Shown: positions 6,661 to 29,089 of the stretch, one piece after another
How the letters are laid out: the number at the start of each line of letters is the position of its first letter
Position numbering within the stretch: the first letter of the stretch is position 1
Assembly: GCF_009829685.1 (NCBI RefSeq)
Contig: NZ_VWSD01000009.1
Span: 1-40,689 of the forward strand
Length of the DNA: 40,689 bases
Reading direction: 5' to 3'
DNA from: Cellulomonas citrea
GTDB lineage: Bacteria > Actinomycetota > Actinomycetes > Actinomycetales > Cellulomonadaceae
Position numbers and translations under genes: made by a program
The notes under the pieces: generated by a model
Database searches by the model: none
What the model saw: only the letters and a program-made list of their open reading frames with translations
What the model was told of the DNA's origin: nothing

Positions 6661-6740
6661 GGCGTTCACGTCCTCTCGGTCATCGTCGAGAGTCAGATCG
6701 ACGCGACCGAGGCCCTGCCATGATGGGACCTGGAGCAGTG

Positions 6741-6756
6741 TCACCCAGTTGGGTGA
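6741..6756. promoter_or_regulatory. Palindrome upstream of the beta-helix gene
   Basis: TCACCCAGTTGGGTGA is a perfect dyad of two 6-base arms (TCACCC/GGGTGA) with a four-base centre that is not itself symmetric. It lies about 81-96 bases before ATG 6660 and could be an operator. The half-site resembles the GGGTGAA motif found upstream of four other genes in this locus. Confidence 0.45.
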
Positions 6757-9325: not shown

Positions 9326-10219
9326 ATGGATCTGCGGTACCTCCTCGCCCAGCTGCGACGTCGCGCCTGGGTGACGGCACTGTGCCTCGTCGCGACCGCC
9401 GCTGCGGCATACCTCGTGCAGGCCAGCATCCCCGCCCGCTACCAGGTCCAGGCCTCGCTCGTCCTCGTGCCGCCGAGCCTCACCCAGGACCCGGGCTCCA
9501 ACCCGTTCCTGTCGATCGGCGGGCTCAACCCGGCGGCCGACGTGCTCGTGCGCGCCCTCAACTACTCCTCGTTCCACGAGCAGGTCGCCCCCGGTGGCGG
9601 GACCCGGACCTACGACGTGGCCCGCGACACCGACGCCTCGGGGCCGCTCCTGGTGGTCACGGCCAGCGACGTCACGGCGGCCGGGGCGAACGACGTGCTG
9701 GACACGGTCGTGGCCCAGGCGCCGGTCTCGATGAAGCAGCTCCAGGTCGACATCGGGGTCTCCAACGCCGCGATGATCGACGTGCTCGAGATCGCACGGG
9801 AGACCGAGCCCACCGTCGACACCAAGAGCCAGCAGCGGGCGCTGCTCCTCGTCGTGGGCGGCGGCCTCGGCGCCACCTTGCTCGGCGTCGGCCTGCTGGA
9901 CCGCTGGTTGCTCAGCCGCACGCCACGCCGCCGCACGCCGGGCCGCTCCGCCGGCACGGGGTCCACGCCGGTCCCGGGCGCGGGGCCGGGCCCACGCCCC
10001 GAGCCGAGCCGCCCGAAGGGCACGGCCTCGGCACCCGCCGACCCCCGGTCCAAGCGGCGGCGGGTCCCGCCCCGCCCCGGCGGCTCGTCGGACGAGACGC
10101 CGGTGGGTGGCGTGGCCCAGCTCGAGGAGCTCATCAGCCAGCCGTCCTACGGCCCCGTCGTGCCACCGGCGGACGACTCCGACGCGACCCCCTTCCGGGG
10201 GGTGAAGGGCACGCAATGA
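9326..10219 (+). CDS. Wzz-like chain-length determinant with long cytoplasmic tail
   Basis: A 297-residue polysaccharide copolymerase-like protein. The start MDLRYLLAQLRRRAWV followed by a membrane helix at about 14-34 is typical of actinobacterial Wzz/CapA proteins. An extracytoplasmic domain follows (TASDVTAAGANDVLD near 112-126). A second helix lies at about 171-190, then about 105 cytoplasmic residues rich in Pro, Arg and Gly, ending in an acidic patch. It has no Walker motifs, so it lacks the tyrosine-kinase half found in many Gram-positive systems. It is the first gene of a four-gene operon; its stop overlaps the polymerase ATG by four bases. It probably sets polymer length with the Wzy-like protein. 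Confidence 0.82.
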   Translation: MDLRYLLAQLRRRAWVTALCLVATAAAAYLVQASIPARYQVQASLVLVPPSLTQDPGSNPFLSIGGLNPAADVLVRALNYSSFHEQVAPGGGTRTYDVARDTDASGPLLVVTASDVTAAGANDVLDTVVAQAPVSMKQLQVDIGVSNAAMIDVLEIARETEPTVDTKSQQRALLLVVGGGLGATLLGVGLLDRWLLSRTPRRRTPGRSAGTGSTPVPGAGPGPRPEPSRPKGTASAPADPRSKRRRVPPRPGGSSDETPVGGVAQLEELISQPSYGPVVPPADDSDATPFRGVKGTQ

Positions 10220-12779: not shown

Positions 12780-14152
12780 GCGCCGCGGCGGCCCGGTTCG
12801 CGGCCGCGGCGTACCGGGGGGTGGTCGCGGCCGTCGACCTGCTGCCCGCCGGCTGGCGGTACGGCTACGTCACCCCGGTCGCCGCACGCGTCCTGGGCGG
12901 CGACCAACCCGCCGGGTTCCGCCCGGTGACCCCGGCCCCGGCCCCGGCCACGGCCACGCCCGCGTCCGGCCCCGAGCGGCCGGTTCCGGCTCCCCGGCTG
13001 CACGTCGGGCTCGTCACCGGCCGCCTCGACGTCGGCGGGGTCGAGGCGGTGGTCGCGATGCTCACCGAACGGCTGCCCCACGAGGCGGTCCGCTGCACGG
13101 TCGTCTGCACCCAGCTCGGCCGGACGGCGGCCACCCTGCGGACGTCCGGGGCCCAGGTCGAGGTGGTCACCACCGCTGAGCGGGCTGCCGCGACGTTCCA
13201 AGCGATCGGGGCGGACGTGCTCCAGCTGCACAATGCGCCGCCGTTCCTCGTCGCAGCCGCCCGGCGCAGCGGCCTGCCGCTCGTCCCGGTGGTGCACAAC
13301 ACCGAGGTCTACAACACGGGCGAGGACTGGCGCGCCGCCGCCGAGCTGCTCGACCACTCCCCCCAGGCGGTCGCGGTGAGCGCCGCGGTGCGTGACTACT
13401 ACCGTGCGCACCTGCCGTGCGAGACCGCCACCGCCTGGTCCGTCGTGCCGAACGCGGCTCCCGTCGGGTCCGTGCGCACCTCGGCGGACCGGGACCAGGC
13501 GCGTGAGCTGCTCGGCAGGTTCTTGGGCGTCGAGCTCGCCACCGAGACGGTCCTGGTCTGCCCCGCCCGCTACGACGCGCAGAAGAACCTGCCGGGCACG
13601 GTCGCGGCGTTCCACTCCCTCGCCGCCACCCCGGGTCGGCACCGGCTGCGCCTCGTCATCGCGGGCGAGGTGACCGACTGGGTCGAGCACCGCCGTGCCG
13701 ATGCGGTCCGCCGTGCCGGGCCGATGCGGGACCGGGTGCACCTGCTCGGCAACAGCGACACCTCGATGCTGCTGGCGGCCGCGGACGGTCTGCTGCTCGA
13801 CTCCTTCTTCGAGGGCTGGCCGGTGGTGGGCTCCGAGGCGGTGACCGTCGGCCTGCCGCTCGTCATCGCCGATGTCGGGGGTGCCGTCGAGCTCGTCTCC
13901 GCCGGTCACGGCGTCGTCGTCCCCAACCCCGCGGGGCCGACGGCGGGTCTCGACCCGCGTGTGCTGGCCCGGGCCCGCCGCGCCACGTCGCAGGTCAACG
14001 TGCCCGCGCTGCGCGCCGCCCTGCTCAGGGTCGGCCCCCACGACCTGGACCGGCGCAGCCCCCTGCGCGACGAGCAGGTGTCGGCTGCGGTCGACGCGAT
14101 GGCACGGGCGCACGCCGCTGTGCTGGCGGCAGCGGCCGGATCAGCCCTCTGA
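12776..14152 (+). CDS. Glycosyltransferase family 4 with Ala-rich N-terminal extension
   Basis: A 458-residue GT-B glycosyltransferase. The first 75 residues are rich in Ala and Pro and precede the acceptor domain, which begins at LHVGLVTGRLDVGGVEAVVA. The donor domain has VLVCPARYDAQKNLPGTVAAF and the EX7E-type motif SFFEGWPVVGSEAVTVGLPL. GTG 12776 forms a GTGA junction with the previous stop, which fixes the start. It ends the plus-strand operon, and its last 12 bases overlap the end of the converging flippase gene. Confidence 0.85.
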   Translation: MSAAAARFAAAAYRGVVAAVDLLPAGWRYGYVTPVAARVLGGDQPAGFRPVTPAPAPATATPASGPERPVPAPRLHVGLVTGRLDVGGVEAVVAMLTERLPHEAVRCTVVCTQLGRTAATLRTSGAQVEVVTTAERAAATFQAIGADVLQLHNAPPFLVAAARRSGLPLVPVVHNTEVYNTGEDWRAAAELLDHSPQAVAVSAAVRDYYRAHLPCETATAWSVVPNAAPVGSVRTSADRDQARELLGRFLGVELATETVLVCPARYDAQKNLPGTVAAFHSLAATPGRHRLRLVIAGEVTDWVEHRRADAVRRAGPMRDRVHLLGNSDTSMLLAAADGLLLDSFFEGWPVVGSEAVTVGLPLVIADVGGAVELVSAGHGVVVPNPAGPTAGLDPRVLARARRATSQVNVPALRAALLRVGPHDLDRRSPLRDEQVSAAVDAMARAHAAVLAAAAGSAL

Positions 14153-15757
14153 GGCTGCCGCGGTGGCCGGCAGCCTGGCCTCCACGCGCGCGACGAGGCC
14201 CGGCGCGATCCGCCCGACCCGCAGCCCGCGCAGCAGGTCCACGGCGACGGCGGGTTCGACGAGAATCGCGAGCACGACCTGGACCAGGGACATCGCCACT
14301 CCGACCAGCACGAGGCGGAGCAGGTCGTCGAAGCCCGATGTCAGCACCACCACCAGCAGCCCGACCGCGGTGCTGCCGATCATGATCGGCGCGGCGCGCA
14401 CCAGCGGCGTCGCGATGTTCGTAGCCCTGGTCTCGAGCAGCCTCGCCACGAGGAACCAGCGCAGGACCGTCGCGCCGAACGCGACCAGAGCGAACCCGCA
14501 TGCGACACCGAGCAGGCCCCACCGCACGGTGAGCGCCGTGACCGCCAGCGTGAGACCGTCGATCACGACCGAGTACCAGAGCCAATTGCCGGGCTTGCCC
14601 ACACCGTAGAAGAGCCCGTGGTCGAGCGTGGCGCCCATGGTGAACACGGCGGCGAGGGCGAGCACCTGCGCGACACCTGCGCTTGTGCCCCACCCGCCGC
14701 CGAAGAGCACCGGGACGATGAGCGGGCCAGCGGCGACAACAAGCCCCAACGGAAGCGACACCGTCGTGTAGCACGCGGACAGGGCACGGTGATAAGCCGA
14801 CCGAAGGTGCTCGACGTCCTCGCGCGTCTTGGCAAAGACCACCGTGGCGACCGGGAAGATCGCCGAGGCACTGAGGTCCTGGACCGTCTCGATGAGCTTC
14901 TTGGCGATGCTCAGGTATCCCAGCCCCGTCGCACCGAGAACCGACGCGATGATCGCGGTCTCGCCCCACGCACGTGCCACCGCCACGAGCTCGACGACGA
15001 CGACCTGGCTTCCGAACCCCGCCATGACTCGGAGGTCGATCAGCGAGAAGCCCCATCGTGGCCACCAGCGCGCCCGCACGATCGCGAGGACGGAGCCCAC
15101 GCCCATCGAGACGAGCAGCTGCCCGACCAGGGCACCGACACCCGCCCCATTGAGTGCGAGCACGACCGCGACCACCTGGGCGGCGAGACTCGCGACCGCG
15201 GTCTGCTGCGCCAGCTCACGGAACATCAGGCGGCGCCTCAGGAGCGCGATCGAGACCGACGACAGCGAGACCATGAGGATCGCAGGTGCCATCCAGCGCA
15301 GCGCCGTCGTCACCCCGGGGATGCCGAACGCGGCCGCGAACAACGGCGCACACAGGTAGAGCGCGGCGAAGAGGATGACCCCCATGCCCAGGCTGAACCA
15401 GAAGGCGGTTCTCAGGGCTCGTTCGCTGGGCGCGTCGACCTGGACGACATAGGTCGACAGACCGACATCGCTCAGCAGGTACACCATCGGCAGCACGGAC
15501 ATGGCCGCGGAGACGGTGCCGAAGTCCGCCGGATCGAGCACACGAGTCAGCAACGCGACAGTCGCGAGGCCACCGAGCCGAGTGATCCACTTCTGCACGG
15601 TCATCCACAGGACGCCGCGCGTGGCGGCCCCGCCTAGTCCACCAGACTCCACCGCCGCATCACGGACGTGCTCCGCATCGGGTGCCGCCGCGAGGCCCTC
15701 GCGCCGACGGCGCCGCCACACGCCGCTCACATGCCCCATCGATTCCATGTCCGCCAT
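14141..15757 (-). CDS. Wzx-like flippase, polysaccharide transporter family
   Basis: A 538-residue membrane protein of the MOP superfamily with about 12-14 hydrophobic helices and a 45-residue soluble start. The opening of the domain, GVLWMTVQKWITRLGGLATV, and RVLDPADFGTVSAAMSVLPM are characteristic of Wzx/RfbX/LPS biosynthesis flippases. It should move undecaprenyl-linked repeat units across the membrane for Wzy. Three ATGs are possible (15757, 15748, 15739); all overlap the end of the upstream GT2 gene, and GGCGGA before 15748 makes that one attractive. Base composition is lower in G+C than neighbours (for example 39 of 60 at both 14761-14820 and 15541-15600), suggesting a separately acquired segment. 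Confidence 0.9.
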   Translation of the reverse strand: MADMESMGHVSGVWRRRRREGLAAAPDAEHVRDAAVESGGLGGAATRGVLWMTVQKWITRLGGLATVALLTRVLDPADFGTVSAAMSVLPMVYLLSDVGLSTYVVQVDAPSERALRTAFWFSLGMGVILFAALYLCAPLFAAAFGIPGVTTALRWMAPAILMVSLSSVSIALLRRRLMFRELAQQTAVASLAAQVVAVVLALNGAGVGALVGQLLVSMGVGSVLAIVRARWWPRWGFSLIDLRVMAGFGSQVVVVELVAVARAWGETAIIASVLGATGLGYLSIAKKLIETVQDLSASAIFPVATVVFAKTREDVEHLRSAYHRALSACYTTVSLPLGLVVAAGPLIVPVLFGGGWGTSAGVAQVLALAAVFTMGATLDHGLFYGVGKPGNWLWYSVVIDGLTLAVTALTVRWGLLGVACGFALVAFGATVLRWFLVARLLETRATNIATPLVRAAPIMIGSTAVGLLVVVLTSGFDDLLRLVLVGVAMSLVQVVLAILVEPAVAVDLLRGLRVGRIAPGLVARVEARLPATAAASEG

Positions 15758-16798: not shown

Positions 16799-17902
16799 TC
16801 ATACCAGGGCCTGCACCAGGACCTCGACCACCCGTTCCTGCTGGGCAGACGTGAGGTGCGGGAACATCGGCAGCGACAGGATGTGGTCGGCGGCCGCCTC
16901 GGCCACCGGGAACGCGCCCCGGCCCAGCCCGAGACCCGCGTACGCCGCGGTGAGGTGCACGGGCGTCGGGTAGTGGATCCCCGCCCCGATCCCGGCGTCC
17001 CCCAGCGCGGCGAGCACCCGGTCCCGCTCCTCGACCTGGACGACGTAGAGGTGCCAGATGTCCTCGTTGCCCGGTGCCGTGGTCGGGACCCGCACCCCCG
17101 GCACGTCGGCGAGCAGCGCGGCGTAGCGGTCCGCCGCCACCCGGCGCGCGGCGTTCCAGTCCTCGAGCCGGCGCAGCTTCGCCTCCAGCACGACGGCCTG
17201 GACGGTGTCGAGCCGGGAGTTCACCCCGATGAGCTCGTGCTCGTACTTGCGCGGCGAGCCGTGGGCCGAGAGCACCCGCACCGTCCGGGCCAGGTCGTCG
17301 TCGTCGGTGAGCACCCCACCGCCGTCGCCGGCTGCCCCCAGGTTCTTGCCGGGGTAGAAGCTCGTCCCCGCGATCGCACCGAAGGTGCCCGCCGTCCGGC
17401 CGCCCTGCCTGGCACCCTGCGCCTGGGCCGCGTCCTCGACGACGGGCACACCCGCCGCCTGCGCGATCGCCAGGAGCGGGTCCATCGGCGCGACCTGGCC
17501 GAACAGGTGCACCGGCACGATCGCCTGGGTGCGCGGCCCGACCGCGGCGCGCACCGCCTCGGGGTCCATGAGCAGGTGCACCGGGTCGACGTCGACGGGC
17601 ACCGGGACCGCCCCGATCCGCGAGACGGCCTCGGCGGTGGCGATGAACGTGTTCGCCGGAACGATCACCTCGCCCCCCGGCTGCACCCCCACGGCGCGGT
17701 AGGCCAGCTCCAGGGCGTCGGTGCCGTTGCCGACCCCGACGCAGTGCCGCACCCCGACGAACGCCGCGAACGCCTCCTCGAACCGACCGACCGCCGGACC
17801 GCCGATGAAGGCGGTCCGCGCGAACACCTCGGCCAGCCCGGAGTCGACCTCCCCGGCGATCTCGGCGTGCTGGGACAACAGGTCGACGAACGGGACGGAC
17901 AT
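16799..17902 (-). CDS. DegT/DnrJ/EryC1/StrS sugar aminotransferase, WbpE/QdtB-like
   Basis: A PLP-dependent aminotransferase of 367 residues that converts a keto group of a nucleotide sugar to an amine, with glutamate as usual donor. The start VPFVDLLSQHAEIAGEVDSG, the GNGTDAL turn at 59-65, VVEDAAQAQGA near 154-164 and Lys186 in SFYPGKNLGAAGDGG (Schiff-base lysine) are typical. VPANTFIATAEAVSRIGAVP and the overall pattern are closer to 3-keto sugar aminotransferases (WbpE, QdtB/FdtB) than to 4-keto ones; this is inference. ATG 17902 has GAGG five bases before it; the adjacent ATG 17905 is the alternative. It lies 50 bases after the PglD-like gene, inside the operon. Confidence 0.9.
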   Translation of the reverse strand: MSVPFVDLLSQHAEIAGEVDSGLAEVFARTAFIGGPAVGRFEEAFAAFVGVRHCVGVGNGTDALELAYRAVGVQPGGEVIVPANTFIATAEAVSRIGAVPVPVDVDPVHLLMDPEAVRAAVGPRTQAIVPVHLFGQVAPMDPLLAIAQAAGVPVVEDAAQAQGARQGGRTAGTFGAIAGTSFYPGKNLGAAGDGGGVLTDDDDLARTVRVLSAHGSPRKYEHELIGVNSRLDTVQAVVLEAKLRRLEDWNAARRVAADRYAALLADVPGVRVPTTAPGNEDIWHLYVVQVEERDRVLAALGDAGIGAGIHYPTPVHLTAAYAGLGLGRGAFPVAEAAADHILSLPMFPHLTSAQQERVVEVLVQALV

Positions 17903-17952
17903 CATGACCTCGGCTCTCTGGTGTGGATCGACGACTGGTGCAGCACGGACCG

Positions 17953-18597
17953 TCACCGGGCCCGGGTGGTGATCGGGCGCGCGGGCGTGCCCACCCACAC
18001 CTGGCCCGCCGGCAGGTCCTCCAGCAGCGCGGACCCCATGCCCAGGGTCGCACCTGCCCCGACCGAGACGCGCTCGCGGACCGCGGAGCTCATCCCGAGG
18101 TAGGCGCCCGGCCCGACGCGCACCCAGCCACCGAGGGCGACGCCGGCGCACAGGGTCGCGTAGTCCTGCACGACGTCGTCGTGCGTGAGCGTCACGTGCG
18201 GCATGACCACGACGTGGTCACCGATCTCGACCGCCGTCGTGAGCACGACACCGGCCAGCAGGATCGTGCCGCGTCCGATCCGGGTCGCCCCGGCCGTGGA
18301 GACCCCGGGGTGCACGACCGTCGCATAGCGCTCCGGCGTGACCCCGGCCCGGGTGAGCCGCTCGACCACCGACCTGCGTGCGGAGCCGCGGCCCGCGCAC
18401 ACCACGAGCTCGGCGGCCGGCCACCGGGCCACGTCGTCGATGCCACCCAGCACGGGCAGACCGTCGACGTCGCGCCCCACGAGGCCCGGGTCGTCGTCCA
18501 GGAAGCCGAGCACCTCACGCTCGCCCTGCTCCCGCAGCAGGGCCAGCACCTCACGGGCGAGCCCGCTCGCGGCGACCAGCAGGAGCGGTGCGGCCAC
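17953..18597 (-). CDS. PglD-like sugar O/N-acyltransferase
   Basis: A 214-residue acyltransferase of the PglD/NeuD family. The N-terminal Rossmann-like half begins LLLVAASGLAREVLALLREQ and has FLDDDPGL; the C-terminal left-handed beta-helix has VVMPHVTLTHDDVVQDYATL, with His of THDD in the place of the family's catalytic base, and ends WVGTPARPI. Such enzymes acylate the amine made by a DegT aminotransferase on a UDP- or dTDP-sugar. It follows a PglE-like aminotransferase by one base, which strongly suggests the two act in sequence. GTG 18597 is the start. Confidence 0.87.
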   Translation of the reverse strand: MAAPLLLVAASGLAREVLALLREQGEREVLGFLDDDPGLVGRDVDGLPVLGGIDDVARWPAAELVVCAGRGSARRSVVERLTRAGVTPERYATVVHPGVSTAGATRIGRGTILLAGVVLTTAVEIGDHVVVMPHVTLTHDDVVQDYATLCAGVALGGWVRVGPGAYLGMSSAVRERVSVGAGATLGMGSALLEDLPAGQVWVGTPARPITTRAR

Positions 18598-18598: not shown

Positions 18599-19732
18599 TC
18601 AGAGCCCCGCCGCGTCCCGGATCGACCGGATGACCCGGTCCTGCTGCTCGTCGGTCATCACGTGGAAGACCGGGAGGATGAGCGTGGAGTCCGTGAGCCG
18701 CTCGGTCACCGGCAGCGGGCCGTGCTCGACACCCGCGTGCGCCGGCTGCCGGTGCGCCGCCATGATGCCGCGCCGGGCCGAGATCTCGTCACCGGCCAGG
18801 TGGGCCAGCAGCCCGTCACGGTCGACCGGGAACTGCTCCCCCACCTCGACCCAGTAGGACTGGAAGCTGCTCGTGCCCCACGCCGGGTCGGCCACCGGCC
18901 GCAGCCCGGGCACGGCCTCGAACGCGGCCGAGTAGCGGGCCGCGATCTGGCGGCGACGAGCGAGGATCTGGGGCAACCGGCCGAGCTGGACGAGCCCGAC
19001 CGCGGCCTGCAGGTCGGTCATCCGGTAGTTGTAGCCGACCTCGAGGTACTCCTCGGCCGGGGCCAGGACGCTCGCGTGCCGGTCGGCCGCCGAGACGCTC
19101 ATCGCGTGCTCGCGAAGCCGCCGGGCCCGCGCGGCCCAGTCCTCGTGGGGCGTCGTGAGCATGCCGCCCTCGCCCGTCGTGATGACCTTGCGGGGGTGGA
19201 ACGACCAGGCCGTGATCTCGGCGCCCGCGCCGACCGGACGACCGCGGTAGGTCGCGCCGGCACCGCATGCGGCGTCCTCGATCACCACGATGCCCCGCGG
19301 GTCGGTGACGGCACGGATCGCGTCGAGGTCGACGGGCACACCGCCCTGGTCCACCGCGATGACGGCACGGGTCCGCGGCGTGAGCACGGCCTCCACGGTC
19401 GCGGCGGTGAGGTTCCCCGTCGCCGCATCGACATCGGCGAAGACCGGGTGCGCACCGACGTAGGTGGGCGCGTTCGTGGTGGCGACGAAGGAGAAGGACG
19501 GGACCACCACCTCGTCACCGGCGCCGACACCCGCCACGACGAGCGCCAGGTGCAGCGCGGTCGTGCACGAGCTCGTCGCCACGGCGTAGGGCACCTGCTG
19601 GGCCTGGGCGAACTCCGCCTCGAACCGTGCGACCCGAGGGCCCTGGGCGACCCAGCCCGAGGCCAGCACCTCGTTGACCGCGTCGGCCTCCTCCTGGCCG
19701 AGCCAGGGACGCATCACGTCGATGCGGCTCAT
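18599..19732 (-). CDS. DegT/DnrJ/EryC1/StrS aminotransferase, PglE-like
   Basis: A PLP-dependent sugar aminotransferase of 377 residues. The opening MSRIDVMRPWLGQEEADAVN and SGWVAQGPRVARFE match the 4-keto sugar aminotransferases (PglE, perosamine synthase). Key sites are VIEDAACGAGA with Asp153 and the Schiff-base Lys182 in SFHPRKVITTGEGG. With the adjacent PglD-like acyltransferase it would form the last steps of an N-acylated 4-amino sugar such as N-acetylbacillosamine; the product is inference. The needed 4,6-dehydratase is not obvious in this window. ATG 19732 overlaps the SDR stop by four bases and has GAGGAG upstream. Confidence 0.9.
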   Translation of the reverse strand: MSRIDVMRPWLGQEEADAVNEVLASGWVAQGPRVARFEAEFAQAQQVPYAVATSSCTTALHLALVVAGVGAGDEVVVPSFSFVATTNAPTYVGAHPVFADVDAATGNLTAATVEAVLTPRTRAVIAVDQGGVPVDLDAIRAVTDPRGIVVIEDAACGAGATYRGRPVGAGAEITAWSFHPRKVITTGEGGMLTTPHEDWAARARRLREHAMSVSAADRHASVLAPAEEYLEVGYNYRMTDLQAAVGLVQLGRLPQILARRRQIAARYSAAFEAVPGLRPVADPAWGTSSFQSYWVEVGEQFPVDRDGLLAHLAGDEISARRGIMAAHRQPAHAGVEHGPLPVTERLTDSTLILPVFHVMTDEQQDRVIRSIRDAAGL

Positions 19733-20778
19733 GAGAGCTCCTCACCCGGTGCGGCGGACGTCGCGCTGGCGACCCAGTTGCGGTCCTCGATCCGGGCGAG
19801 CATCTCCTGCGGAGTCTGCGGCCGCGAGCTGAACCACCCGACGAGGTCGGCGACCCCGTCCTCGAAGACGACCTTGGTCTCGAAGCCGGTGAGCGACTTC
19901 ATGTACCGGCCGTCGACGATGAGCCGCCGCACGTCGCCCGGACGGTCCTCGAGGTGGACCGGGACGAGGTCGGGACGTCCCACCCCGGCCACCACCGCGG
20001 CAGCCAGGTCGTTGATCGTGACCTCACGCCCCGAGCCGAGGTTGACCGTCTGGCCGACCGCCTCGTCGCAGACCGCCAGCGCGGCGAGCCCGCGTGCGGT
20101 GTCGTGCACGTGCATGAAGTCCCGGGTCTGCTCACCGTCGCCGTAGACCAGCGGCGGCAACCCGCACAGTGCCCGGACGATGGTGCGCGGCAGCACCTCA
20201 CCGCTGTCACCCTCGAAGTGGCTGCGCGGGCCGTAGGTGTTGAACGGTCGAGCCACCACGGTCGCCATCCCGTGGGTGCGGAACGCCGCACGTGCGTAGG
20301 CCTCCCCGGCGAGCTTGCTGCCGCCGTACACCGTCTCCGGCCAGGTCGGGTGCCGCTCGTCCATCGGCGCGTACTGCGCGGTGCCGAAGACCTCGCTCGA
20401 GGAGACGTGGACGAACCGACGCACCTCGTGGCGCCGGGCCGCCTCCAGCAGCGTGAGCGTCGCGCCGGCGTTGACGTCATGGTTCTCGACGGGGTCGTGC
20501 AGCGAGTGCCGCACCCCCAGGCAGGCGAGATGCATGACGACGTCGACGCCCTGCAGCGCGCGCTCGACCGCATCACCGTCGCGCAGATCGGCCGCGTCGA
20601 ACCGCAGCCTCGGATCGGTCCCGAGCCGGACGAGGTTCTCGATCCGGCCGTTGGCGAGGTTGTCGATGACCCGGACCTCGGCGGGGTCGTGGTGCTCGAG
20701 CAGCTCGTCCACGAGGTGCGAGCCGATGAAGCCGGCCCCTCCGGTGACCAGGACCCGCGCGCCCTCGAGCCCGCTCAT
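19729..20778 (-). CDS. NAD-dependent epimerase/dehydratase (extended SDR)
   Basis: An extended short-chain dehydrogenase of 349 residues acting on a nucleotide sugar. GGAGFIG at 13-19 binds NAD(P); the active-site set is SSSE at 126-129 with Tyr151 and Lys155 in YGGSK. Later motifs ARPFNTYGPR and GDGEQTRDFMHVHD are typical of UDP-glucose or UDP-GlcNAc(A) 4-epimerases and UDP-glucuronate decarboxylases. The SSSE signature argues against a dTDP-glucose-type 4,6-dehydratase, which has a DE pair at this place. A C-terminal extension of about 30 residues follows the domain. ATG 20778 overlaps the oxidoreductase stop by four bases, and its stop overlaps the next start. Confidence 0.88.
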   Translation of the reverse strand: MSGLEGARVLVTGGAGFIGSHLVDELLEHHDPAEVRVIDNLANGRIENLVRLGTDPRLRFDAADLRDGDAVERALQGVDVVMHLACLGVRHSLHDPVENHDVNAGATLTLLEAARRHEVRRFVHVSSSEVFGTAQYAPMDERHPTWPETVYGGSKLAGEAYARAAFRTHGMATVVARPFNTYGPRSHFEGDSGEVLPRTIVRALCGLPPLVYGDGEQTRDFMHVHDTARGLAALAVCDEAVGQTVNLGSGREVTINDLAAAVVAGVGRPDLVPVHLEDRPGDVRRLIVDGRYMKSLTGFETKVVFEDGVADLVGWFSSRPQTPQEMLARIEDRNWVASATSAAPGEELS

Positions 20779-21821
20779 GCCGCACCCGCCCCGACGTTGC
20801 CCGCGACGGGGACGAGCCGGCCGGCCTCGCCGAGGCTGCGGCCCGCAGCCTCGAGCACGTCGAGCACCCGAAGACCGGCGCTGCCGTCGGTCCGCGGCGG
20901 GCGTCCCTCCCGGATGGCGGCGGCGAACTCGGCGACCATGACGCCGAGCGCCTCCGCCTCCTTGAGCGCCGGCGACCACGCGTCACCGAGCCGGTAGGAC
21001 ACCTGGGCGGCGGTCCGGTCCGCCGTCGTGGCCCGCAGGTCGACGCCCCGGTCGAACACCGTGAGGCGTTGCTGGGGTGCCAGGTCGTCCCACACGAGGG
21101 TCTTCTTGCTGCCGCCGACGACGAACTGCCGGATCTTGGTCGGGCTGAGCCAGTTCACGTGGACGTGGGCCATGGCCCCGCCGGGGAGCGGCAGCGTGAG
21201 GTAGCCGACGCAGGACTGGCCGACGCCCAGCGGATCGGCACCCTGTGCGCCGACGGCGGTCGGGACGAGACCCCCGGGCAGGATGAAGTCGAGGATCGAC
21301 AGGTCGTGCGGCGCCAGGTCCCAGAACACGTCGACATCGGGCTGCACGAGCCCGAGGTTGATGCGCACGGAGTCGACGAACTGGATCTCGCCGAGCGACC
21401 CGTCGGCGATGAGCTCACGGATCTTCAGGACCGGCGCCGTGTAGCAGAACGTGTGGTCGACCATGAGGGTGAGGCCACGTTCGGCCGCGAGCGCGACCAT
21501 CGCCCGGCCGGCCTGACCGCCGTCGGCGATGGGCTTCTCGACGACAACGTGCTTGCCCGCCTCGAGCGCCGCCGTCACGATGGCGGCGTGCGTCGCCGCG
21601 GGGGTCGCGACCGCCACCGCGTCCACGTCGTCCCGAGCCAGCACCTCCGGCAACGAGGTGACGACCTCGACGGTCGACCGGGCGCCCACCACCTTGCGAG
21701 CCCGCGCCTCGTCGAGGTCGCACACCGCGACGAGGTCCCAGTCAGGGCTGTTCCGGAAGTTCCGCGCCAGGTTGGGCCCCCAGTAGCCGGCCCCGATCAC
21801 TGCCACCTGCAGCTTGCTCAT
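20775..21821 (-). CDS. Gfo/Idh/MocA oxidoreductase, WbpB/WlbA-like
   Basis: An NAD(P)-dependent sugar oxidoreductase of 348 residues. The Rossmann motif is VIGAGYWGPNLARNF at 8-22, the family signature EKPIA is at 95-99, and DLAPHDLSILDF at 169-180 holds the conserved His-Asp of this group. In WbpB/WlbA such enzymes oxidise C3 of UDP-GlcNAc uronic acid, providing the 3-keto sugar for a WbpE-type aminotransferase and a WbpD acetyltransferase; both partner types occur in this window (16799 and 26856). It opens the seven-gene minus-strand operon. ATG 21821 has AAGGAC upstream. The substrate is inferred. Confidence 0.88.
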   Translation of the reverse strand: MSKLQVAVIGAGYWGPNLARNFRNSPDWDLVAVCDLDEARARKVVGARSTVEVVTSLPEVLARDDVDAVAVATPAATHAAIVTAALEAGKHVVVEKPIADGGQAGRAMVALAAERGLTLMVDHTFCYTAPVLKIRELIADGSLGEIQFVDSVRINLGLVQPDVDVFWDLAPHDLSILDFILPGGLVPTAVGAQGADPLGVGQSCVGYLTLPLPGGAMAHVHVNWLSPTKIRQFVVGGSKKTLVWDDLAPQQRLTVFDRGVDLRATTADRTAAQVSYRLGDAWSPALKEAEALGVMVAEFAAAIREGRPPRTDGSAGLRVLDVLEAAGRSLGEAGRLVPVAGNVGAGAA

Positions 21822-21943: not shown

Positions 21944-24900
21944 TCAGCTCGAGGGCACGAAGACCAGGTCGACCCCGTACGAGGCGGACGAGCTGCTGCC
22001 GGGGAACCCCGTCCCGTAGACGTAGGCACCCCCCGGTGCGAGGCTCGTCAACGGACCGGCGGTCAGTGCCGTGGCCAACCCGTTGGGATCCACCGCGTAG
22101 TGCCCGGTGCTCGAGTGGTAGGCGACCGTGTAGGTCTGGCCGGGCGCCACGGACACCGGCGAGGCCAGCTGGACGGTCTGCCAGCCGGAGGCCGACTCCG
22201 CCGAGGATGCGGCCGAGGCCAGCAGGGTCTGCGACCCGTCCCAGAGCTTGACCGTGTGGACCCCGGTGTTCGCCGCGCCCTTGTAGAACCGGATGGCGGT
22301 CACCTGGCCCGGAACCGACGTGGTGAACCGGAGCCCCACCTGCACCGCTGCGGTGTCGTTCCAGGCGGCGTTGGCCGGCGTGTACGTGTCCGACCAGAAC
22401 GACACCGCCGAGGCCTGCGGCGCGCTCGTGGTGAACGACCACGACCCGCTCCCCAGTGTGGCGCCGTTCAGGCTCGCTGCCGCGGTGTAGGAGGTACCGG
22501 TGGCCATCGGGGTCGACGGGACGAAGGTGACGGTCAGGCTCGCCGCGTCGTAGCTGCTGGTGCCCGCGACGGCGCCCGAGGCCGAGCTCACCGAGAGCTG
22601 GGGCGTGCCCGAGGCGGGCGCCTTCGACAGCGTCGCCGACAGGGACGCCGTGGTCGACACCCCCGTCGCTCCCGCCGGAGGTGAGGTGGACACGACGGTC
22701 GGCGGCGTGGGCGCCCCCCGCACGAACACCACGTCGACGAAGTAGTTCGACTGCTGCCAGGTCGACGTCGGGAACCCACCGGACGCCCCGTACCGGTAGC
22801 GACCGTTGCCGACGGCAGGCACCGTGAGCGGACCGACCGTCAGATCAGCGGTGAAGGCGTTCGCGGTCACCGCGTAGTGGCCCTGGGGCGCGAGGTAGGA
22901 CACCACATAGGTCTGGCCGACGGTCACCTCGTAGGGGCTGCTGAACGTGGCCGTCTGCCAGCCCGAGGCCGACTCGTTGGCGAAGGTCACCGTGCGCAGC
23001 GCGGTCCCGTTCGAGCTCCACAGCGTGCCGACGTGGGTGCCGCCGTTCCCGGCGCCCTTGTAGAACCGCACCCCGGTGATCGAGCCGCTCTCGTTGGGTG
23101 TGAACGAGACGCCGAGCTCGACCGCGCCGGTGTCGTTCGCGGAGGCCGTGGCCGGGGTGCCGGTCGCGAAGAGCGAGCACGGGCAGCCGTCCGACCCCGT
23201 CGTGGTGAAGCTCCAGCTGACATCGGCTGCGGTGCTGCCGTCGGTGGCGGTCAGGTGGCTCGCGGTCGCGGTGTAGGACGTCGAGGCCGCCAGCGCCGAG
23301 GTCGGCGTGAAGGTCAGCGTCAGGCCGTCCGAGGACAGGCTCGTGGCACCGGCCACCGACGTCCCCGCGGCGGTCCGGAGCGCGAGCGAGGCCGCGCTCG
23401 TCACGGCCTTGGAGAAGGTGACGGAGACCGGGTTGCCTACCGGAGCGGCGGTCTCGCCAGACGCGGGCACCTGCGACGCCACGGTCAACGGGGTCGCCGC
23501 CCGCTTGAAGACCACGTCGACCAGGTAGCTCGTCGAGGTCGTCGTCGACGGGTACCCGTCGGCGTAGCTGTACATCCCGCTGTCGGTCGCGGTGCGCAGC
23601 GGGTCACGCTGCACACCGGCACCGGAGAACGCGCCCGCGGTCGCGGAGTACCGCCCGACCGTCGTGCGGTAGGACACCACGTACTCGGTGTTCTTCGTGA
23701 TCTGCACCGGCTGGGAGAACGTGGCGGTCTGCCAGCCGGTCGTGGTCTCGTTCGTGAAGGTCACGGTCGCGAGCGCGGCGCCGGTCGCCACCGACCAGAG
23801 CGTCCCGACGTGGGTCCCGGTGTTGTTCGGGCCCTTGTAGAACCGGACGCCGGTCACGGTGCCGTCCACGGAGCTGGCGAACCTCGTCCCGAGGGTCACG
23901 GCGTCGTTGTCCGGGACGTCGAGGACGCCAGGAACCGCGGAGTCGTTGTAGAGCGACACCACCTGGGCGCCGGCCACCTGGTCGGGTGCCGCCGTGGTGA
24001 AGGTCCAGCTCGGGCTCCCGGTGATGGCACCGCCGCCGACAGCCGTCGCAGCCAGGGTCGCCGTGTACGACGTGGAGGTGGCGAGCGCGGCGGACGGCGT
24101 GAACGTCACCGTCCGGCTGGCGGCGTCGTAGGTCTTGGTCCCGGCCACCGACGCCCCGGCTGCCGTCTTGAGGGTGAACGTCACGGTCGAGGCGGTCACG
24201 TCCTTGGAGAACACCGCCGAGAGGCTCGACCCGGTGAGCACCGAGCCCGCACCCGCCAGCGGCGTCTTCGACGAGATGACCAGCGGCGTCGTGTCGACCG
24301 TGTTGAACACGACGTCGACGTAGTAGTTGGAGGAGCCGTAGGTGCTCGTCGGGAAGCCGCCCGGCGCACCGTAGACCCCGGATGCGGCCGAACCGAAACC
24401 ACCCGGGACCGACAACGGCGCAGCGGTGTAGGCCCGATACCAGAACGCGTCGGCGCGGACGGCATACCCGCCCGCAGGTGCGGTGTACGAGACGACGTAC
24501 GTCGTACCCGCCGTCACCGGGACGGCCTGCGCCAAGGTCGCCGTCTGCCAGCCCGTCGCGGTCTCGGCGCTGAACGTCACGGTCGCGAGCTTCGCGCCCG
24601 CCGCCGACCACAGCGTCCCGGTGTGGGTTCCCGTGTTGCCGGAACCCTTGTAGAAGCGCACCCCGGTGATGTAGCCCGACGTGGACGGCACGACCTTGAG
24701 CCCGAGCTCGACGGCCGAGGTGTCCGAGGCCGATGCGACGGGCGGCACGGTCGAGCCGAACAGCGTGCAGGGGCAGGACACGGTGAAGCTGCGGCTCACC
24801 ACGGCGCCGATGTTGGCGCTGTCGTCCGTCGCCCGCACCTTGACGGCGGTGCTGCCGTTGCCGGTCTGGACGTAGGTGTAGCTCCAGCTCGTCGTGCCCG

Positions 24901-26653
24901 TGGCGGGGTGCCACGACGTGCCGCCGTCGGTCGAGACCTCGACGCCCGCGACGGTGCCGCCGAGGTCGTAGGCCGAGCCGGTGAGGGTGACCGAGGCTCC
25001 GTTCGACTGCGCCGAACCAGCCCCCGGGGTCAGGATCGTGACGGTCGGACCCGTCGTGTCCGCCGTCTTGGTCGCGGCGACCAGACCCGACATCAGCGTC
25101 GTCGGCTGGGCCGACATGTCCGCGAGCAGGTTGACGGTCGCCTGCTGCATCCGGGAGTCGGCCGGTGCGCCGGCGCCGTCGTGCTCCTGGTCGAGCCCCC
25201 AGGCCCACTGGATGGACCCGGCGGAGAAGACCCGCGCACCGCTCGCCGCCTTGTAGAGCGTGATGTGGTGCGACGTCGTGCCCGGCGCCGTCACGAGGCC
25301 GTAGTCCTGCAGGTACTGCGGCACGGCACCGTTGGTCGTGGACATCCGGATGAGGCCTGCCGGTCGGAACCCGTTGTCCACGTCCTCGTCGGACTCGTAG
25401 CCCACCGTGTGGGGCGCGAGGGCGGCGGAGGTCCCGGCGGCCATCGAGGCGAGCGGGGTGTTGCGCCACAGCCGGAGCTTGCCCTCGGCCGCCGAGACCG
25501 TGACCGGCAGATCGGAGTCGTTGGACATGTACATCGTGCCGGTCAGCGCGTTCTCCGGGGTCCCGCCGCCGTTCGCGGGCGAGGCGAAACGCGGGTCGCG
25601 GAAGGTGCCCGTCCACTGCGCCGACGGGTCGATCTTGGCGTTGCTCCAGGTCTCCTTGTACGAGACGAGCGTGCGGTAGGCGGTGGACGCCCCGTCGATC
25701 GAGGGCTCGTAGCGGGTGCGCCAGTAGACCTCGTTGCCGCTGAAGAAGGCAAGGTTCACGCCGGCGTCGCGGGCCGCCTCGACGTTCGCCCGCTGCGCAC
25801 CGGACCAGTACTCGTCGTGCCCGACCGAGAGGAAGACCTTGTGGTTCTTCAGCAACGACCCGGCCCGGTCGGAGTCCACCCCGGCGATGTACGTCATGTC
25901 GTAGCCGTTGCGCTCGAGGAACCGCACCATCGCGAACTCGGAGCTGAAGTAGAAGTCCCGGCCTTCGATTCGGCCCCTGGTGACGACCGGCCGGTTGTAG
26001 CTGATCTTGTAGGCCCGCCCGTTGGCCGCCCCCTGGTAGAAGTCCGAGCCGCCGTAGGTGTTGTAGGCCTGCCAGGTCGGGTCGGACGTCTGGAACACCA
26101 CCTGCGAGGTGCTGGCGTCGTTGCGGACGACGAAGACGATATGACTGGCCTCACCCGTCGACGGGACCGTCAGCTTGGCGACGTACACACCCGAGACCGC
26201 CGTGGACGGCACCGCCCAGGTCGCCGACAGGCCCCAGTTGCCGCAGTCGGTGAGCTCGTTGGTCTGGTCCCAGATGCACTGCGGCTGCGCCTGCGGCAGC
26301 GTGGCCGACGGCGTCACCGAGGTGATGTACCGGGCGCCGAGGCCCTGGTAGTAACCGGTCCGGTAGATGTCGATCGTGTAGGCGGCGGCCGCGGTGTCGA
26401 TCTTGAAGCCGATGGAGCTGCCCGCGTTCACCGAGATGTCGGTCGAGAACCCCTGGATCGCGTCCGAACCGGCGCCGCTGATGTCCCAGACCGACGGGTC
26501 GGTCCCCGGCTTGGAGTTCTCGCACGCGATCGCGTTCCCACCGACGCAGGGGTCGGTGGCGGCGGACGCCGGCACGGCGGCGAGCGTCACGGGCAGTGCC
26601 AACGCGAGGCCGACCAGCGGGGCCACCCAGCGACGGCGCATCAGACGAGACAT
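21944..26653 (-). CDS. Giant secreted mosaic: DMFase-like domain, Ig-like domains and four DUF4082
   Basis: A 1569-residue exported protein. The signal peptide spans 1-31 (cleavage near ASA/AT). Residues about 50-520 form a domain like the C-terminal part of N,N-dimethylformamidase large subunit, with GHDEYW at 278-283 and GNEVYW at 306-311 at the places of that family's conserved motifs; the reaction here is unknown. An Ig-like domain follows at about 536-625. Then DUF4082 copies at about 628-784, 898-1051, 1158-1313 and 1414-1569 alternate with three SbsA/Big_5-type domains (about 788-888, 1051-1151, 1318-1408). Each DUF4082 has variants of GVRFYKG, GTLWS, GWQTAT and YVDVVF. ATG 26653 has GGAGG five bases upstream, so the longer frame to 26776 is rejected. 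It ends without a sortase motif or membrane anchor. Confidence 0.88.
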   Translation of the reverse strand: MSRLMRRRWVAPLVGLALALPVTLAAVPASAATDPCVGGNAIACENSKPGTDPSVWDISGAGSDAIQGFSTDISVNAGSSIGFKIDTAAAAYTIDIYRTGYYQGLGARYITSVTPSATLPQAQPQCIWDQTNELTDCGNWGLSATWAVPSTAVSGVYVAKLTVPSTGEASHIVFVVRNDASTSQVVFQTSDPTWQAYNTYGGSDFYQGAANGRAYKISYNRPVVTRGRIEGRDFYFSSEFAMVRFLERNGYDMTYIAGVDSDRAGSLLKNHKVFLSVGHDEYWSGAQRANVEAARDAGVNLAFFSGNEVYWRTRYEPSIDGASTAYRTLVSYKETWSNAKIDPSAQWTGTFRDPRFASPANGGGTPENALTGTMYMSNDSDLPVTVSAAEGKLRLWRNTPLASMAAGTSAALAPHTVGYESDEDVDNGFRPAGLIRMSTTNGAVPQYLQDYGLVTAPGTTSHHITLYKAASGARVFSAGSIQWAWGLDQEHDGAGAPADSRMQQATVNLLADMSAQPTTLMSGLVAATKTADTTGPTVTILTPGAGSAQSNGASVTLTGSAYDLGGTVAGVEVSTDGGTSWHPATGTTSWSYTYVQTGNGSTAVKVRATDDSANIGAVVSRSFTVSCPCTLFGSTVPPVASASDTSAVELGLKVVPSTSGYITGVRFYKGSGNTGTHTGTLWSAAGAKLATVTFSAETATGWQTATLAQAVPVTAGTTYVVSYTAPAGGYAVRADAFWYRAYTAAPLSVPGGFGSAASGVYGAPGGFPTSTYGSSNYYVDVVFNTVDTTPLVISSKTPLAGAGSVLTGSSLSAVFSKDVTASTVTFTLKTAAGASVAGTKTYDAASRTVTFTPSAALATSTSYTATLAATAVGGGAITGSPSWTFTTAAPDQVAGAQVVSLYNDSAVPGVLDVPDNDAVTLGTRFASSVDGTVTGVRFYKGPNNTGTHVGTLWSVATGAALATVTFTNETTTGWQTATFSQPVQITKNTEYVVSYRTTVGRYSATAGAFSGAGVQRDPLRTATDSGMYSYADGYPSTTTSTSYLVDVVFKRAATPLTVASQVPASGETAAPVGNPVSVTFSKAVTSAASLALRTAAGTSVAGATSLSSDGLTLTFTPTSALAASTSYTATASHLTATDGSTAADVSWSFTTTGSDGCPCSLFATGTPATASANDTGAVELGVSFTPNESGSITGVRFYKGAGNGGTHVGTLWSSNGTALRTVTFANESASGWQTATFSSPYEVTVGQTYVVSYLAPQGHYAVTANAFTADLTVGPLTVPAVGNGRYRYGASGGFPTSTWQQSNYFVDVVFVRGAPTPPTVVSTSPPAGATGVSTTASLSATLSKAPASGTPQLSVSSASGAVAGTSSYDAASLTVTFVPSTPMATGTSYTAAASLNGATLGSGSWSFTTSAPQASAVSFWSDTYTPANAAWNDTAAVQVGLRFTTSVPGQVTAIRFYKGAANTGVHTVKLWDGSQTLLASAASSAESASGWQTVQLASPVSVAPGQTYTVAYHSSTGHYAVDPNGLATALTAGPLTSLAPGGAYVYGTGFPGSSSSASYGVDLVFVPSS

Positions 26654-26771
26654 GGGATCCTCCAGCGCAGTGCCGACCCGGAGCGGCGCGCGGGCAGGCG
26701 CCGCTCGCACGAGTCGGTCGATATCGGACAATAGGGGAAGATCGGGCGCCGTCGAAGGTTGGTCCATCCCT

Positions 26772-26855: not shown

Positions 26856-27455
26856 ATGAGCCCCGCATCCGTCGCCCCCACCGCCGATGTCGACCCGGGC
26901 GCCCGGCTCGGTGACGGCACGAAGGTCTGGCACCTCGCTCAGGTCCGCGAGGACGCCACCGTCGGTGCCGAGTGCATCATCGGGCGCGGCGCGTACATCG
27001 GCCCCGGGGTGCGGGTCGGCGACCGGTGCAAGATCCAGAACTACGCCCTGGTCTACGAGCCGGCGGTGCTGGAGGACGGCGCCTTCGTCGGACCGGCCGT
27101 CGTGTTCACCAACGACTACTTCCCGCGGGCGGTGACCGTCGACGGGGCCCTCAAGTCGGCCGACGACTGGCACGCCGTCGGCGTCACGGTGCGCACCGGC
27201 GCCTCGATCGGGGCGCGCTCGGTCTGCGTCGCCCCCGTGACGATCGGGCGGTGGGCCCTCGTCGCCGCCGGGTCGGTGGTGACCCGCGACGTGCCCGACT
27301 TCGCCCTGGTGGCCGGGGTCCCGGCCCGTCGGGTGCGCTGGGTCGGGCGCGCGGGGGAACCCCTGGAGCAGGTCGACGCCGCGACCTGGCGCTGCCCGCG
27401 GACCGGCGAGACCTACCGCGAGACCGACGGCACGCTCGCGCTGCTCGACGCCTGA
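26856..27455 (+). CDS. WbpD-like UDP-sugar N-acetyltransferase
   Basis: A left-handed beta-helix acetyltransferase of 199 residues. GDRCKIQNYALVYE, GPAVVFTNDYFPRA and VPDFALVAGVPARRVRWVGR correspond point by point to conserved stretches of WbpD/WlbB, which acetylate the 3-amine of UDP-2-acetamido-3-amino-2,3-dideoxy-glucuronate. The substrate must be a related amino sugar; exact identity is inference. ATG 26856 has TGAGGAG nine bases upstream, and the frame before it is non-coding. A CxxxGE-type tail (CPRTGETYRETDG) follows the helix. It is divergent from the giant secreted protein and converges on the initiating transferase with 26 bases between stops. Confidence 0.9.
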   Translation: MSPASVAPTADVDPGARLGDGTKVWHLAQVREDATVGAECIIGRGAYIGPGVRVGDRCKIQNYALVYEPAVLEDGAFVGPAVVFTNDYFPRAVTVDGALKSADDWHAVGVTVRTGASIGARSVCVAPVTIGRWALVAAGSVVTRDVPDFALVAGVPARRVRWVGRAGEPLEQVDAATWRCPRTGETYRETDGTLALLDA

Positions 27456-27481: not shown

Positions 27482-29089
27482 TCAGTAGGCCCCTGAGCCG
27501 CCGATCACGGCACGCAGGGTCTTCCACACGATGAGCAGGTCGAGCGCGATCGACCAGTTGTCGACGTAGCGCAGGTCCAGCCGGATCGACTCGTCCCACG
27601 ACAGGTCCGACCGTCCGGAGACCTGCCACAGACCGGTGAGCCCGGGGCGCACGTGCAGCCGGCGCCACGTGGCGTCGCGGTAGCCGTCGACCTCGTCCGG
27701 CAGCGGCGGCCGGGGCCCCACGAGGGACATGTCACCGCGCAGGACGTTCCACAGCTGGGGAAGCTCGTCGAGCGACAGACGCCGCAGCACCCGTCCGACC
27801 GGGGTCACCCGCGGGTCGGCGCGCATCTTGAAGAGCACACCGTTGCCCTCGTCCTGGGCCGCGAGCGCGGCCTTGCGGGCCTCGGCGTCGACGTACATGC
27901 TGCGCAGCTTGAACATCCTGAACGGCACGCCGTCGATGCCCACCCGCTGCTGGACGAAGAACGGCGAGCCCTTGCTGGTGAGGGCCACCGCCACCGCGCA
28001 GACGGCGATGACCGGACCGGCGACCAGCAGCATCATCGCGGCGGTCAGCCGGTCGAACCACCACTTGGCCCACTGCCGACGACGCGGCGTCGCGACCTCG
28101 ACCTCGAGCAGCGACAGCCCGGCCGTGGGACGCATGCGCACCCGTGACCCCATGACCTCCACGAGCCCGGGGGCGACGACGAGACGGGTGCCCGTCTGCT
28201 CGAGCGCCCACGAGAGCCGGCGAAGACCGTCACCGGTGAGCGCGCCGCCGGTGACCACGACGACGTCGATCGACCAGTCGTGCACCACCTGCGGGATGTC
28301 GGCGATCGCACCGAGCGTGGGAACGTCGCGCACCGTCGGAGCGGTGTCGAGGGAGGGGACGCACGTGCCGACCACCCGGTAGCCGTGGTAGCTCGCGGTC
28401 TGCAGGTCATCGACCACCCGGCGCAGACCCGCACCGTCGCCGACGATGAGGGTGCGTGCCATCGCCTGCCCCTGCGCGCGCGCCCGGTGCAGGCCACGCC
28501 GGACCCCGTAGCGCCCGACCCCCACCCCGAGGGTGAGCAGGACGGCCGTCGTCGCGACGACGGACCTGGACATCGGCAGGCCGGCCCACTCGCTGACGAC
28601 CGCAGGGACCACCACGGCGGCCAGACCACCGCGCAGGACGGCCTGGAACTCGCCGGGGCCTGTCCCCAGGAAGTTGGTGTCGTAGCCACGGAACAGCGCC
28701 ATGCTGGCCAGGAAGGTGACGACCACACCGAGGGTCCACAGCATCCCGATCGCCGAGCCCGGTCGGGTCAGCCAGGCGATGGCGCCGACGACGACACCGG
28801 CGACCATGAGGTCGACGGCCACGACGCGGAGCACGTAGGCGCTCGCCTCGACCTGCCACCCTGCGTCGGGACGCTCGACGGCGCGCGGCGGCCGGTCCTC
28901 GAAGGGGCGGCTGCGGGCCCAGGACATCCGCGGGCCGGCGGAGGTGCCACGCCGGTCGAACCCGGTCGGCTCCGACGGCGTCTCCACCGGCTCGAGCACA
29001 GGCAGCTCGCCGGTGTCCGTGCGCGGCACCGAGGCGGACGCGCGGTCGACGGCGTCGACACCTCGGTCTGCATCGTCAAGGATCGTCAT
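27482..29089 (-). CDS. Initiating polyprenyl-phosphate sugar phosphotransferase (WbaP/CpsE type)
   Basis: A 535-residue membrane enzyme that transfers a sugar-1-phosphate from a UDP-sugar to undecaprenyl phosphate, the first step of repeat-unit synthesis. About 80 polar residues precede four membrane helices (about 88-200), then a CoA-binding-like Rossmann region (ARTLIVGDGAGLRRVVDDLQ), a further helix near 350-370, and the catalytic sugar-transferase domain with RMFKLRSMYVDAE, LDELPQLWNVLRGDMSLVGP and RPGLTGLWQVSGRSDLSWDE. All these are hallmarks of the family. It is transcribed alone, away from the pth end. A GGGTGAA motif lies about 80 bases before ATG 29089. Confidence 0.93.
   Translation of the reverse strand: MTILDDADRGVDAVDRASASVPRTDTGELPVLEPVETPSEPTGFDRRGTSAGPRMSWARSRPFEDRPPRAVERPDAGWQVEASAYVLRVVAVDLMVAGVVVGAIAWLTRPGSAIGMLWTLGVVVTFLASMALFRGYDTNFLGTGPGEFQAVLRGGLAAVVVPAVVSEWAGLPMSRSVVATTAVLLTLGVGVGRYGVRRGLHRARAQGQAMARTLIVGDGAGLRRVVDDLQTASYHGYRVVGTCVPSLDTAPTVRDVPTLGAIADIPQVVHDWSIDVVVVTGGALTGDGLRRLSWALEQTGTRLVVAPGLVEVMGSRVRMRPTAGLSLLEVEVATPRRRQWAKWWFDRLTAAMMLLVAGPVIAVCAVAVALTSKGSPFFVQQRVGIDGVPFRMFKLRSMYVDAEARKAALAAQDEGNGVLFKMRADPRVTPVGRVLRRLSLDELPQLWNVLRGDMSLVGPRPPLPDEVDGYRDATWRRLHVRPGLTGLWQVSGRSDLSWDESIRLDLRYVDNWSIALDLLIVWKTLRAVIGGSGAY

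Follow-up and report, generated by a model that had tools for sequence, protein, structure and literature searches.

A gene on the minus strand of a Cellulomonas citrea contig (21944..26653; NCBI RefSeq NZ_VWSD01000009.1, assembly GCF_009829685.1) encodes a protein of 1569 residues, herein referred to as the fusion, in which a signal peptide and a DMFA2_C domain related to N,N-dimethylformamidase (DMFase) are followed by four DUF4082 domains. The window, that is, the whole stretch of DNA analyzed, comprises 40,689 nucleotides with a GC (guanine plus cytosine) content of 73%. The best explanation for the fusion, held on sequence grounds with slightly less than even confidence, is that it would be an extracellular metal-dependent amidase acting on the cell's own polysaccharide of di-N-acylated amino sugars. 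The evidence for this explanation includes the conservation of a putative metal site and the pairing of the fusion gene with an amino-sugar operon.

The interval 21944-26653 is a single open frame of 1569 codons on the minus strand, with its ATG at 26653; the plus-strand reading is interrupted by a stop and is not the gene. The third-position GC bias is strong (0.57/0.61/0.94 in the frame 21944-26776), and the codon bias is that of a real gene. Behind the signal peptide (residues 1-31, 26561..26653, read by eye and ending ASA/AT), Pfam places the DMFA2_C domain (PF20254; residues 93-491, 25181..26377; 331 bits against a curated cut-off of 27, E 1.6e-98) and a Big_7 immunoglobulin-like (Ig-like) domain (residues 536-606, 24836..25048; E 1.1e-7). 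These are followed by three DUF4082-Big_5 pairs and a final DUF4082. The four DUF4082 stretches (PF13313; 24317..24751, 23519..23938, 22736..23161, and 21977..22381) score 593.7 bits, above the curated cut-off (E 7.7e-181), and the three Big_5 (SbsA-like) stretches (23993..24295, residues 787-887; 23201..23497; and 22427..22708) have an E-value of 2.4e-34. All these features lie on the minus strand. The fourth DUF4082 copy also exceeds the cut-off of Lectin_like (PF18560; residues 1444-1518, 30.1 bits against 27). No NCBIfam model reaches its cut-off in the fusion, and PF01522 (CE4-type polysaccharide deacetylase) is unmatched in it by Pfam. The DMFA2_C gene is present in one copy in the genome. 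A preliminary description, made from the letters alone, had reported a secreted dimethylformamidase-like domain joined to four DUF4082 domains that alternate with SbsA-like ones, encoded in a polysaccharide locus; it gave no strand, and on each of these points it is borne out.

Searched as a single sequence, the fusion matched the large subunit of DMFase (6lvb) over residues 197-318 with a weak E-value of 0.013. In a search of the PDB, the profile of 40 DMFA2_C domains ranked 8i5a, an N-acetyl-(R)-beta-phenylalanine acylase, at the top (E 6.5e-27), followed by DMFase 6lvb (E 2.6e-20). According to the DMFase study, the iron ligands of this enzyme are Y399, Y440, and E521, the mutants Y440A, E521A, and H519A are inactive, and N547 is located at the site (PMC7686228). 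In the profile alignment, the ligands Y399, Y440, and E521 correspond to Y197, Y206, and E281 of the fusion, H519 to H279, and N547 to N307. All five positions are invariant in the 40 aligned domains, that of the window included. Sixteen plasmid-borne proteins from further genera and a different phylum, several of which are closely related to each other, also retain these residues without exception (16 of 16). The Tyr and Glu ligands, on whose retention the preliminary description had made its proposal depend, are therefore kept by this alignment. The two motifs to which it had drawn attention, GHDEYW (residues 278-283) and GNEVYW (residues 306-311), are present as well; the pair of tyrosines carries more weight than these motifs. 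Its wording "amidohydrolase family" has to be replaced: seven Pfam families match the fusion at E<=1 and none is of the TIM-barrel amidohydrolase kind, so that superfamily was rejected in favor of a dimethylformamidase-type fold, described for DMFase as ThuA/glutamine-amidotransferase-like (PMC7686228). The alignment and the tree built from it contain 40 of 64 DMFA2_C regions, near-copies and partial matches having been dropped. In the tree, 27 fusion domains fall on one side of a branch (100/99) and 13 short ones opposite.

Export is indicated by a hydrophobic leader ahead of the domain in 36 of 38 fusion rows, including that of the window, in a crude test; the two rows failing it are cut or masked, and L078 is a doubtful pass. 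A cysteine pair (C...CEN) just behind the leader was also found in 36 of the 38 rows. The twin-arginine (Tat) pattern, again crudely defined, occurs in 11 of the 38 leaders, among them the window's, and the export route may be either Sec or Tat. The leader of the L091 fusion (G268, before ~8151) is strongly Tat-like (SRRRFFAF); a neighbor of this fusion is SelO. Neither an LPxTG/sortase motif nor a later strongly hydrophobic span or membrane anchor was found in the fusion of the window.

Genomic context was compared in 35 further fusion loci, 8 from a related-locus search, 7 from relatives, and 20 from genomes of the class. The latter were chosen for frames of 1539-1704 codons and not by their neighbors, so counts of architecture are biased to that size; frames of 2030-2727 codons also occur in the class but lie outside the sample. 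The order DMFA followed by four DUF4082 domains alternating with three Big_5 was found in 25 of the 35 loci, and the remaining 10 carry between two and five DUF4082 domains. Two control sets were used: 27 DMFA2_C loci with frames shorter than ~800 codons, none with a DUF4082 match, and 20 arbitrary loci at hand-chosen round offsets, not random, in 10 of the fusion genomes. One short locus, L042, was missed by phmmer with the DMFA query, although its domain is detected by Pfam. The marker for the Gfo/Idh oxidoreductase was found in 27 of the 35 fusion loci, in none of the 27 short loci, and in none of the 20 arbitrary ones, with locus lengths of 8.8-24.7 kb for the fusion set and 15.5-20 kb for the short set. 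The two DegT markers were found in 29 and 27 fusion loci and the epimerase marker in 27. At a threshold of >60 bits, none of 17 markers was found in either control set; at the laxer E<1e-6, one match appeared among the short loci and two among the arbitrary ones. The Gfo/Idh-positive fusion loci represent six family codes (f1, f17, f36, f37, f38, and f45) plus a named Microbacterium, and the 35 loci are not independent (L003, L005, and L031, for instance, are close kin). In a sample of 60 genomes of the genus, its own included, a Gfo/Idh orthologue was found in all 11 genomes that encode the fusion and in 4 of the 49 that do not (Fisher 4e-9, a descriptive value that ignores kinship).

In the window, the fusion gene lies in a Wzx/Wzy-type cluster with genes for an initiating transferase, a flippase, a Wzy_C protein, a Wzz-like protein, and several glycosyltransferases. 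Directly downstream of it, on the same strand, is the gene for the Gfo/Idh oxidoreductase (20775..21821, minus), whose best NCBIfam match, below cut-off, is UDP-GlcNAc 3-dehydrogenase. The other minus-strand genes of the operon encode an NAD-dependent epimerase/dehydratase (19729..20979, the longest open frame, with the match starting at about residue 75; best NCBIfam match the LegB 4,6-dehydratase, below cut-off), a DegT/DnrJ aminotransferase (18599..19732), a NeuD/PglB-type sugar acetyltransferase above its NCBIfam cut-off (17953..18597), and a second DegT/DnrJ aminotransferase (16799..18151, the longest open frame, matched from about residue 106). Directly upstream, about 200 bp from the start codon of the fusion, lies a divergent gene for a hexapeptide acyltransferase (26856..27449, plus), which we take to be WbpD-like; N-acyltransferases are part of the observed association. 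Gene sets of the Gfo/Idh-dehydratase-DegT-acyltransferase type yield sugars bearing at least two N-acyl groups. Since the dehydrogenase, the dehydratase, and the aminotransferases of the operon are all below NCBIfam cut-offs, its product is named no more narrowly than that. Further along the cluster are a polyprenyl glycosylphosphotransferase (27482..29089, minus; EPS_sugtrans, above cut-off), a Wzx-type flippase (14141..15757, minus; Polysacc_synt_3), and a Wzy_C or O-antigen ligase-like membrane protein (10216..11607, plus). Two exported-looking right-handed beta-helix proteins with long Pro-Thr linkers are encoded at 6894..8423 and 4969..6744 (both minus), the former with one DUF4082 domain; it is possible that they are companions acting on the polymer.

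The DUF4082 repeats were represented by a model of copy 3, computed from 33 of 37 copies after those of L005 were dropped. The model, a beta-sandwich, has a high predicted local distance difference test score (pLDDT 95.3). Its top match in VIA-align 2 is the lectin-like domain of Cwp84 (4d59, 4ci7; Z 12.0, rmsd (root-mean-square deviation) 2.7, 130 residues aligned), yet the identity is 10%. PHR domains follow at Z 10.4-10.9 and carbohydrate-esterase entries at Z 6.8-8.2. Binding of the polymer by DUF4082 is plausible from this model. In a sample of 149 genomes of the phylum, 4 contain DUF4082; the domain is mentioned in PMC4257694.

Taken together, the following mechanism is proposed. The operon would produce nucleotide sugars bearing at least two N-acyl groups, and Wzx and Wzy would assemble and export the polymer. 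The fusion, exported by its signal peptide, would be docked on this polymer by four lectin-like DUF4082 domains with Ig-like spacers between them. In the DMFA2_C domain, Y197, Y206, and E281 would hold iron or another metal, H279 and N307 would be catalytic, and a polymer amide, most simply an N-acetyl group, would be hydrolyzed.

Relatives on plasmids extend the association to a second phylum. Matches were found in 166 plasmid records, 60 of them covering at least 80% of the protein; the matches H40-H50, partial or distant, were not counted as fusions. Polysaccharide genes were found in 7 of 15 annotated plasmid regions (L142, L143, L144, L145, L148, L151, and L153). In four of these, L144, L148, L151, and L153, the Gfo/Idh-DegT-acyltransferase-epimerase-DegT set is present, in full or as far as the region shows it, and on Rhizobium plasmids a few genes separate the amino-sugar operon from the fusion. 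The Rhizobium region L151 also encodes, at 8668-10554 near the amino-sugar operon, a DMFA2_C protein of 628 residues with no annotated DUF4082; therefore, in Rhizobium the sugar operon can be accompanied by the catalytic domain itself. This gene is flanked by two O-methyltransferase genes, and a pyruvyl transferase gene lies farther out.

In nine alphaproteobacterial plasmid regions (L141-L145, L148-L150, and L153), a GTPase gene adjoins the fusion. Its product is annotated as a GTP-binding protein, or as the metal chaperone YciC in L145, and all three proteins tested are CobW with CobW_C by Pfam. In L141, L143, and L149, two DUF4082-protein genes follow one another, each with its own GTPase gene. 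A CobW-type neighbor fits a metalloenzyme, and it is possible that this CobW/COG0523-type GTPase is a dedicated metal chaperone of the fusion. Type I export normally passes unfolded chains, and for this reason the route of metal loading is puzzling. In Rhizobium relatives, between the GTPase and a type I export system, lies a gene for a protein of about 102 residues (L141, 14975-15283; L142, 14100-14405; annotated also in L143, L149, and L150). Two of these proteins were tested and have no Pfam match; the idea that the protein is a DMFase-like small subunit found no support, with no PDB match at E<=1.

Several observations weigh against the proposed amidase acting on the cell's own polysaccharide. 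The fusions of four plasmid regions, L139, L140, L146, and L147 (Paenarthrobacter, Arthrobacter, and Methylobacterium; three Arthrobacter-type, one Methylobacterium), lie among metal-resistance genes, with P-type ATPases, cation diffusion facilitators, ArsR regulators, a ZIP transporter, and a multicopper oxidase as neighbors, and not among polysaccharide genes; L152 has neither kind of gene. Gfo/Idh was not detected in 8 of the 35 fusion loci within the stretch covered, and the fusion of L029 lies among housekeeping genes (RNase III, MutM, SMC-type), with the amino-sugar operon on another contig of the same genome. The polysaccharide association of homologues foreseen in the preliminary description holds for the 27 Gfo/Idh-positive loci, set against none in either control, and for the Rhizobium plasmids, with L029 and the four metal-resistance plasmids outside it. 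Neither of the two findings that the description had named as refuting was made, and its interpretation is upheld in part. Four genomes of the same genus (L133-L136: G009, G017, G028, and G038) hold the operon without the fusion, so the fusion is not needed for making the sugar. Gfo/Idh, the epimerase, and both DegT genes are present in all four; in three of them the divergent acyltransferase gene is the immediate neighbor of Gfo/Idh, the fusion gene being absent from the interval, and in L134 the acyltransferase was not picked up. The locus of the window already encodes a separate polysaccharide deacetylase (PF01522; 4020..4916, plus). On the side of the enzyme, DMFase prefers formamides and has poor or no activity on carbon-substituted amides (PMC7686228). 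No DMFase-type small subunit was seen here, and no genome-wide search for one was made. CobW was rejected as a universal partner and kept for alphaproteobacteria: all 33 actinobacterial genomes searched lack one at a distance of up to 20 kb, among the best 73 candidates scored per genome, with co-location taken from coordinates and many genomes fragmented. As to DUF4082, a mycobacteriophage fiber scores level with the Cwp84 domain in VIA-align 2, where none of the carbohydrate-binding module families is clearly separated from the phage-fiber and PHR rows, and Foldseek ranks PHR domains first. With the phage fiber at the same score and PHR domains next, a function of DUF4082 is not inferable from the Cwp84 match.

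One alternative concerns the substrate. The fusion could be an active amidase whose target is peptidoglycan, some secreted protein, or a small extracellular amide, merely tethered to the coat by DUF4082, and we consider this unlikely while giving it some weight. The DMFA2_C domain does have other uses, since it is common in the class (PF20254 in 170 of 394 sampled genomes) and its DUF4082-less members in actinobacteria have no polysaccharide context. These members keep the site residues, yet no polysaccharide markers were found in their 27 loci, which counts against the favored substrate as well. They share no other context: no family occurs in more than 4 of 84 neighbor proteins (84 of 104 were scanned, leaving aside 12 from L038, L039, and L103 and 8 short or overlapping frames). 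That the solved relatives act on small amides, and that four plasmid-borne fusions have metal-resistance neighbors, would likewise agree with another substrate. However, were the sugar of no relevance, it would be difficult to account for the pairing with a single specific amino-sugar operon in both phyla. An N-formyl sugar was considered as the substrate because formamides are the substrates of DMFase; with a PF00551 formyltransferase within 30 kb in 1 of 28 genomes (G075, partial, ~14 kb away), taken from the 33 used in the CobW search, this candidate is unsupported.

Catalysis itself may also be questioned, since Ig-like and lectin-like repeats make up most of the length of the fusion. A non-catalytic, coat-binding structural protein, in which the metal site or the fold binds N-acyl sugars and organizes the polymer, appears improbable. 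The AlphaFold2 model of the DMFA2_C domain is of low confidence (pLDDT 50.6, from a 10-sequence alignment holding 10 of 11 regions from named loci and the window, with a partial L007 copy dropped) and too poor for an overlay of the site; its top Foldseek matches are acylase entries at template modeling (TM) scores of 0.27-0.34, treated as weak. In G079, the place of the fusion directly upstream of Gfo/Idh is held by a frame of 1423 codons (L137 5531-9799, plus) with three GH43_C2/DUF1349 matches and BACON matches, perhaps another polymer-binding protein, and this large frame of binding domains would suit a structural role. On the other hand, both Tyr ligands and the Glu, together with the His and Asn that are not ligands, are unchanged in all 40 aligned domains and all 16 plasmid-borne proteins, a pattern expected from selection on catalysis. 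Transamidation, by which the fusion would make amides and transfer polysaccharide or acyl groups, for example in anchoring the polymer, is highly improbable and otherwise speculative: hydrolase folds can run in reverse and the fusion lacks a sortase motif or membrane anchor of its own, yet both solved relatives are hydrolases (the acylase by its entry name).

Beyond the amidase on the cell's own polysaccharide, a broader and more doubtful proposal may be made, namely that the fusion represents a new class of carbohydrate N-deacylase. This would be an extracellular metallo-amidase of the two-Tyr-one-carboxylate type, unrelated to known polysaccharide deacetylase families, tied to polysaccharides of di-N-acylated amino sugars in Actinomycetota and Pseudomonadota, and held on the polymer by lectin-like DUF4082 domains; in alphaproteobacteria, its own CobW-type GTPase would supply the metal and a type I system would export it. 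If the amidase explanation is right, a function would be assigned to the exported branch of the common family PF20254 and to its rarer companion domain DUF4082, and the unusual iron-amidase chemistry would move from solvent degradation to bacterial surface sugars. By exposing amino groups, the exported enzyme would determine how the coat is charged. The four genomes of the same genus with the operon and no fusion are natural comparison strains that require no engineering.

Proteins of similar architecture have already been deposited at NCBI, for example from Paenarthrobacter, Methylobacterium, and Rhizobium plasmids, as "DUF4082 domain-containing protein" or "N,N-dimethylformamidase beta subunit family domain-containing protein", names that carry no function for the fusion. 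No paper on its function was found in the open-licence literature, judged by titles and abstract starts, nor was one found there on N-acetyl-(R)-beta-phenylalanine acylase. This acylase (8i5a, 8huy, and 8i59) has, like the fusion, the aligned Tyr, Tyr, His, Glu, and Asn; judged by the name of its PDB entry, its substrate is an acylated amino acid. Because this enzyme, the closest relative with a solved structure, is an acylase of N-acetyl-beta-phenylalanine, the fold is already known to cleave acetamides, and the "new role for this fold" announced in the preliminary description is weakened accordingly. About 280 residues separate the two matched parts of the acylase (positions 54 and 336), the first of them weak by itself, and the fusion is without these residues: profile positions 58-90 span ~280 residues in 8i5a and positions 50-93 span ~300 in 6lvb, compared with 30-40 in the fusion. 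The first aligned Tyr is preceded by 196 residues in the fusion and by 398 in DMFase, so there is no room in the fusion for the pentraxin-fold domain II of DMFase (residues 74-337; PMC7686228). The large subunit of DMFase (6lvb) shares with the fusion the equivalents of the iron ligands and of H519 and N547; unlike the fusion, which is exported, DMFase requires a small subunit, contains the pentraxin-fold domain II, and acts on formamides (PMC7686228).

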